A stretch of DNA of 64,000 nt from Limnohabitans sp. Rim8. Its GTDB lineage: Bacteria > Pseudomonadota > Gammaproteobacteria > Burkholderiales > Burkholderiaceae_C. Positions within the stretch are counted from its first letter, which is position 1, and each line of letters opens with the position of its first letter. The notes beneath the pieces were generated by a model. It saw nothing but the letters and a program-made list of their open reading frames with translations, was not told where the DNA came from and did no database searches. Below are positions 46,038 through 46,675 of the stretch, in pieces. A program made the translations under genes and the position numbers. The stretch spans positions 18,538 through 82,537 of the forward strand of contig CAMDFT010000004.1 of NCBI GenBank assembly GCA_945897795.1. Direction: 5' to 3'.

Positions 46038-46066
46038 GAAAAACGGCCTTCGGGCCGTTTTTTTTG
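46038..46066 (+). terminator. Rho-independent terminator of argG
   Basis: AAACGGCC-TTCG-GGCCGTTT followed by TTTTT. Confidence 0.92.
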
Positions 46067-46082: not shown

Positions 46083-46250
46083 TTACCGCCTTGTCACTGC
46101 GGCCAGCCGGCCAGCCTCATACTCGCTTCGCTCGCCAAATCGGCTGGTCCGGCAGGCCTCAGTGACAAGGCTACAAGATTGGCCTATTTTGCTTAATGAG
46201 CGGGCCCCCTCCCGGTCCGCAATGGCCTCGGGAGTCCAAAACAAATCCAT
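46083..46250 (-). pseudogene. truncated ParE/RelE-type toxin stub (about 14 native codons, then repeat-derived sequence)
   Basis: ATG overlaps the antitoxin stop (TGATG); reads MDLFWTPEAIADRE then GARSLSKIGQSCSLVTEACRTSRFGERSEYEAGRLAAVTRR*. Confidence 0.7.
46090..46169. repeat. large hairpin element A with conserved apical 31-mer
   Basis: CTTGTCACTGCGGCCAGCCGGCCAGCC ... GGCTGGTCCGGCAGGCCTCAGTGACAAG; about 25 bp paired with two mismatches and a bulge. Confidence 0.88.
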
Positions 46251-46537
46251 CAGCCAGCCGCTTCAAGCTTGCTGCGAGTGGCTGCACGACGCGCCGCGAA
46301 TTGCGCCTCGACATCCGCTGCGGAAACCAGATTTCCGGCATTGGCCGAATCCAGTCCCGCCTGAACCTGCTGACGAAACCAGACCTCATGGTCGGTCGAT
46401 GCCTGTTGTTGCAAAACAAATTCACGCATGAAATCACGGAGCAGTTGTGCACCGCTGCGATCCCGCCCTTTGGCCGCCAAGGTGAACTGTTTTTTCAACG
46501 ATTCCTCGACCCGAAAAGTAAACGTTGCATCACTCAT
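46250..46537 (-). CDS. ribbon-helix-helix (RelB/ParD-like) antitoxin
   Basis: MSDATFTFRVEESLKKQFTLAAKGRDRSGAQLLRDFMREFVLQQQ...HEVWFRQQVQAGLDSANAGNLVSAADVEAQFAARRAATRSKLEAAG. Confidence 0.82.
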   Translation of the reverse strand: MSDATFTFRVEESLKKQFTLAAKGRDRSGAQLLRDFMREFVLQQQASTDHEVWFRQQVQAGLDSANAGNLVSAADVEAQFAARRAATRSKLEAAG

Positions 46538-46591
46538 AGAAGCCTTATGTATTACAAAGAAAGTACATGGTAGCACTTCGCAAAGAATTCA

Positions 46592-46675
46592 GCGCCGGGT
46601 TGGGGCCTGAGAGGATGAGCCGATTTGGCGAGCGAAGCGAGTATGAGGTCGAACGCTCAGACCTCAACCCGGCGC
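46592..46675. repeat. large hairpin element B, same apical 31-mer inverted relative to element A
   Basis: GCGCCGGGTTGGGGCCTGAG ... CTCAGACCTCAACCCGGCGC arms (20 bp, one G-T, one mismatch). Confidence 0.88.

Follow-up and report, generated by a model that had tools for sequence, protein, structure and literature searches.

Two hairpins between argG and murB in Limnohabitans sp. Rim8 are read here as two copies of one dispersed hairpin family of about 85 bp, probably the Beta-proteobacterial repeat element (BRE), in which a stem would present a conserved loop, spread would occur by rare transposition, and resident copies would then be kept by selection. We give this reading as a whole a probability of about one half. 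The repeat is scattered through the genomes of freshwater Comamonadaceae, and it is a dispersed palindrome with an unusual anatomy that is apparently under selection. Dispersed palindromes are usually seen as selfish debris or as passive terminators. A single orthologous site separates the parts of this one, with arms that drift and remain paired and a loop that is nearly static, so that the notion of the 'repeat' as a working single-stranded structure becomes testable.

The window is the whole stretch of DNA that was analyzed, 64,000 nucleotides in length, and the features at its argG-murB site are the following.
46039..46066, + strand: ordinary intrinsic terminator of argG, separate from element A and upstream of it, read in the sequence and conserved in relatives.
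46088..46171, − strand (the R strand, the one that tolerates wobble pairs): 84-bp hairpin element A, a 28-bp stem with a loop around the core, matched here by the covariance model.
46116..46140, + strand (the core strand): invariant 25-nt loop core of element A.
46208..46250, − strand, limits approximate: remnant of the partner toxin (MDLFWTPEAIADRE, then lost), from comparison with the ParE toxin of L325 (1722-2000).
46250..46540, − strand: RelB-like antitoxin gene (NCBIfam TA_RelB_antitoxin, E 3e-4, below the cut-off; complete module in L325).
46592..46675, + strand (the R strand): 84-bp hairpin element B, in the orientation opposite to A, from the pairing profile, folding and the covariance model.
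46623..46647, − strand (the core strand): invariant 25-nt loop core of element B.
The limits of element A were taken from the pairing profile over 154 copies, and its R strand from the bias in wobble pairs.

An earlier note on this DNA had described two hairpins with an identical 31-bp apex and unrelated arms. The 31-mers, at 46115-46145 (+) and 46618-46648 (−), are inverted and identical at 31 of 31 positions, where no such match is expected by chance. Compared with shuffled sequence, folding gives z-scores of −7.5 to −9.6 for hairpin A and −3.3 to −4.6 for hairpin B, the inner stem of which is partly mispaired. The identity of the apices therefore stands, but the loop proper comprises only 25-27 nt (CTCATACTCGCTTCGCTCGCCAAAT + CG), and the remainder of the 31-mer is inner stem that agrees by coincidence. 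The description of the arms holds for most of their length, but not for stretches near the apex and the foot, where A and B resemble each other. A role for element A as a terminator was considered and rejected, since argG has its own terminator before A and the divergent pyrG-coaBC site carries the element too.

The family was characterized from 154 dispersed, non-redundant copies of 84-86 bp each, which include tandem and inverted clusters; an arrangement as inverted pairs is frequent. Each element consists of a 28-bp stem of constant length and a nearly invariant loop of 25-27 nt. The arms fall into 40 clusters at 65% identity, and the arm types cannot be aligned with one another. The flanks of the core are self-complementary in nearly all copies, with a self score of 18.7 versus 8.2 for mismatched flanks, and so the combination of self-complementary and unalignable flanks that the earlier note had suggested looking for is found. 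Across the outer stem, the paired fraction per position is mostly 0.6-0.88 through the 28th base from the core, and the end of the stem is sharp, with a fall from about 0.78 to 0.24 at the single position just past that base. When arm types are compared, changes on both sides are seen at all 28 pair positions. In around half of the copies the 3' arm has one unpaired base at a set position close to the apex; on the core strand this base is mostly a T. The loop core is nearly invariant save for one free position and one that is C, A or G, a count biased by the collection of most copies via the core; the argG set described below is free of that weakness. The one free base hints at a GNA-type mini-hairpin, GCGNAGC, within the loop, which was not predicted by folding. 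The few copies that do not pair with themselves are chimeras or are interrupted by runs of N. Three copies (L009 1642, L040 1924 and L106 3749) have two arms that do not match each other and that resemble arms of other types; copies of this kind look like chimeras formed by recombination within the loop between neighboring copies.

The best view of how the element changes in place comes from 30 argG loci that were gathered via the ArgG protein and not via the repeat. Element A lies 3' of argG in 17 of them, and the printed argG spacers that were inspected held one remnant (L212) in addition to loci without the element. Across 16 distinct sequences from this site, 97.1% of stem cells are paired, compared with 24-45% in slid controls, and 13 of the 28 pairs have changed on both sides, that is, by compensatory changes at an orthologous place. 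On average the arms have diverged by 24.2%, as against 21.5% for the fourfold sites of argG from these genomes and 1.3% for the loop, where the recognition of elements with a few loop mismatches tolerated would let badly decayed loops escape. From the agreement between arms and fourfold sites, the retained pairing and the low loop divergence, it follows that the arms drift at a near-neutral rate under a pairing constraint and that the loop is held. With self-pairing flanks, covariation at 28 of 28 pairs and compensatory changes in place, these data favor one of the two explanations offered in the earlier note, a hairpin family with stems under structural selection.

Pairing of drifting arms could also be kept by mutation, if template switching between the arms at replication uses one as the pattern for rewriting the other. 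Such switching is reported to homogenize the arms of inverted repeats and to create and maintain RNA hairpins (PMC8604942, PMC8794818). It leaves the conserved loop, the constant stem length and the strand bias of mismatches (below) unexplained, however, and it should correct away the unpaired base, which persists. The loop was also found in inverted form in none of the 17 argG orthologues. Template switching may contribute, and as the explanation of the pairing it is improbable.

Mismatches in the stem are distributed unevenly between the strands. Read on the core strand, isolated non-Watson-Crick pairs of the outer stem are A.C in 94 cases versus G.T in 22 for intergenic copies, and 79 versus 16 for intragenic copies. 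The bias persists when it is counted by arm cluster (17:0 intergenic, 13:3 intragenic), and base composition predicts roughly equal numbers. Core-strand A.C mismatches are G.U or G.T wobbles when read on the R strand, and the argG-site copies have 21 G.T versus 4 A.C on that strand. This indicates, from sequence comparison, that the R strand, with AUUUGGCGAGCGNAGCGAG(N)AUGAG in its loop, folds as a single-stranded hairpin, since a double-stranded or cruciform role gives no reason for such a bias. The bias does not divide RNA from DNA, and relatedness among the copies was controlled by clustering alone.

Loop sequence, pairing, stem length and a single strand are the constraints of a hairpin that presents its loop, from which we infer a loop-presenting function and a binding partner. 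The stem would act as a rod that presents the loop to a putative binding or processing protein. The acting form would most likely be RNA made by transcription across the element; single-stranded DNA is the other option. Two observations favor RNA: in valS copies the R strand is mostly the coding strand, and transcription of a BRE has been published (PMC3110155), which bears on this element if that BRE belongs to the same family. The element would have spread through rare transposition events, by an enzyme acting on it, and resident copies would then be kept via selection on the loop and on pairing. The divergent pyrG-coaBC copy and the mixed orientations of intergenic copies count against a simple cis role in mRNA. 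Two points count against a selected hairpin as the explanation, namely the patchy presence of the element (15 of 300 genomes of the wider family with the strict pattern) and, as far as folding predictions go, the failure of the GCGNAGC mini-hairpin to appear in them.

Orthologous sites also demonstrate that copies are gained or lost between related species. In the spacer of the divergent genes pyrG and coaBC, about 10 of the genomes sampled carry the element and about 10 others have a compact spacer, shorter by about 180 bp that include the whole hairpin; at argG-murB, both elements are absent from L209. The earlier note had offered as its second explanation a mobile sequence landing in the loops of pre-existing hairpins, and had suggested empty sites in close relatives as a means of telling insertion from divergence. 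In those sites it is the whole hairpin that is absent and not the loop alone, and together with the constant stem length and the fixed unpaired base this speaks against that explanation. In the pyrG-coaBC spacers (L361-L384), a TATAAT-like hexamer adjoining pyrG is found a few bases downstream of the insertion, so that the promoter may have had its upstream part replaced by the element. The orientation of intergenic copies to the genes beside them is not consistent, with the gene calls for copy context being approximate, from a simple codon-usage script.

Copies within valS, the gene for valyl-tRNA synthetase (ValRS), are inserted in frame between STMGW and DYDLYLPSSV in many species, and many other genera have only a short linker at that position. 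The R strand is mostly the coding strand, which reads DLASxASMS, and in five valS genes the element is present as an inverted pair. On a ValRS tree built with the insert removed, the filled state takes nine changes, of which at least five are forced by well-supported branches. Divergence in valS copies is 5.7% in the loop, 38% in the arms and 31% at valS fourfold sites, the loop figure being subject to a loop-based ascertainment bias. An apparently different dispersed repeat, encoding the peptide SVRAEPVEA..., occupies the same valS position in two other genera (L332, L345), and the ValRS loop thus appears to be a permissive site, or hot spot, for such inserts. These copies provide a natural case in which a nucleic-acid element imposes a peptide on an essential enzyme.

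Much of this would also be produced by a purely selfish palindromic transposable element of the REP, RPE or MITE type, in which a trans-acting transposase works on the single-stranded R-strand DNA hairpin and the copies have no function for the host. Consistent with this are the dispersal of the copies, their tandem and inverted clusters, their gain or loss between species at orthologous sites, and in-frame insertion in the permissive ValRS loop with at least five forced state changes; the unpaired base and the preference for one strand are also compatible with a transposase that recognizes hairpins in single-stranded form. A functionless resident copy should lose its loop, yet at argG the loops have diverged by 1.3% in place versus 24.2% for the arms. 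The Y1 transposase genes examined also lack a flanking element and are present with or without it, a Y1_Tnp match being found in 60 of 61 genomes regardless of element presence. An exclusively selfish element is unlikely, if still a serious contender.

Between the two hairpins, at 46172-46591 of the window, lies the partly destroyed toxin-antitoxin locus that the earlier note had recognized. The antitoxin is real and the toxin is truncated: relative L325 has an intact antitoxin and ParE/RelE toxin at the equivalent place, and judged against this pair the toxin remnant beside element A is broken off after about 14 codons. The cargo between the hairpins varies among related species (L319-L329). 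In Limnohabitans it comprises a RelB-like antitoxin with or without a ParE toxin and, in other members of the genus, a DUF4160/DUF2442 (DhiT/DhiA-like) pair, hotdog thioesterase genes or a lipoprotein gene. This differing cargo raises the prospect that the inverted pair is a recombination platform, with hairpins that flank small modules, toxin-antitoxin pairs for example, and allow their exchange, in the manner of attC or pdif sites. About 10 species, however, keep the pair with only a short spacer; other pairs that were noted lie about 130-140 bp apart, core to core, and single copies are common. A shared recombinase was not found, and a permissive intergenic region accounts for the varied cargo equally well. 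The platform is a very improbable explanation. The antitoxin is incidental cargo of this species and does not belong to the element: in about 10 relatives the inverted pair stands without any gene inside it, and in further ones it encloses quite other genes.

The window's genome has four copies with an exact 25-nt core, one more with a 26-nt loop and a sixth, divergent one. In a sample of 61 genomes, mostly of the same genus, the 25-nt core with up to two mismatches occurs in 19; a looser pattern gave hits in 44 of the 61 genomes of the genus, and the reversed-pattern control gave a few as well. In the wider family the element is sparse, and the genomes with the strict pattern come from 9 of 141 genera. 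Across 85,462 species genomes a scan matched 112 stretches, and among the matches listed are Comamonadaceae (Limnohabitans, Rhodoferax, Polaromonas, Hydrogenophaga, Brachymonas), a few other Betaproteobacteria and undetermined MAGs. From other Burkholderiales families the covariance model recovered divergent candidates whose loop retains only GCGAYUU-n-AGCGNAGCG-n-GAGC; on the basis of these sequences they are likely akin to the family. In a sample spanning the phylum, and with a strict pre-filter, the model matched only the two genomes already known to have copies. A generic loop pattern run over 398 genomes of the order gave mainly background matches and was left out of the analysis. Plasmids and phages were searched for the element and gave no match. 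In a small-genome genus of Burkholderiales (G037 and G490; L294, L300, L304, L306, L310 and others) there are 10-14 palindromes per genome with a related loop, GCGACTT..CGAGCGNAGCGAG..GGAGC, several of them near contig ends.

A search of Rfam 15 gave no match at gathering score, the sub-threshold matches being almost all to miRNA models, and nothing relevant was found in the literature on the loop sequence or on palindromes in Limnohabitans. We propose, tentatively and at somewhat less than even odds, that this is a structural element under selection and outside Rfam, with an invariant loop on an arbitrary stem of ruler length, mobile-like spread, and retention by the host via a loop-binding protein in coding and intergenic places alike.

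Several known systems share parts of this anatomy. The attC site of integrons is a single-strand hairpin with paired arms of free sequence, extrahelical bases and toxin-antitoxin cargo; its outer boxes, RYYYAAC and GTTRRRY, are conserved and its apex is variable. Here the conserved part is the loop, the reverse of attC, and the outer ends of the elements inspected lack both boxes. Rickettsia palindromic elements (RPE) are likewise palindromic and inserted in frame in protein genes, and are about 150 bp long with a conserved encoded peptide (PMC10969869). The present element has 84 bp, and only the loop codons are conserved in its valS copies, so that it does not belong with them.

REP sequences are dispersed stem-loops too, with head-to-head and tail-to-tail dimers, a location mainly between genes with some copies in frame, and GT pairs in their stems (Di Nocera et al. 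2013, PMC3733652). The GTAG and CGTC families have stems of 5-13 bp, loops of 2-20 nt and a GTAG or CGTC tag at the foot (PMC3733652), whereas the present element has a 28-bp stem, a conserved loop and free arms. The feet in many copies read CC|GC ... GC|TGCG and carry no such tag. A gene with a Y1_Tnp domain and an open frame of about 240 aa (G000:C97:2816-3145 and homologues) is carried by almost all genomes of the genus. No repeat of the hairpin family was seen in the flanks examined of these genes, and thus the arrangement of REP copies around a RAYT gene is absent from the Y1_Tnp loci examined.

The closest likeness is to BRE, a little-studied repeat, judged from its description (size, GC, hosts and placement) and not from sequence. 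BRE copies measure 75-91 bp, with the bprJ copy spanning 85 bp, and have about 69% GC (Hot et al. 2011, BMC Genomics 12:207, PMC3110155); the present element measures 84-86 bp, with a GC fraction of 0.66-0.74 in most matches listed for the model. Hosts of BRE are Bordetella and Comamonadaceae such as Rhodoferax and Polaromonas, and its copies are chromosomal, clustered and mostly intergenic, with some within genes (PMC3110155). Here too the hosts are betaproteobacterial, including Comamonadaceae, and copies are chromosomal, both intergenic and intragenic, and several per locus. One BRE copy is transcribed as an sRNA in Bordetella pertussis, and BRE was described without a function or structure, the main text having no hairpin anatomy, contrast of loop and arms, or analysis of strand or selection (PMC3110155). 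Hairpins A and B are probably members of this family by these shared properties. If so, the present analysis supplies its anatomy and suggests why similarity searches with the whole element would miss many of its copies.
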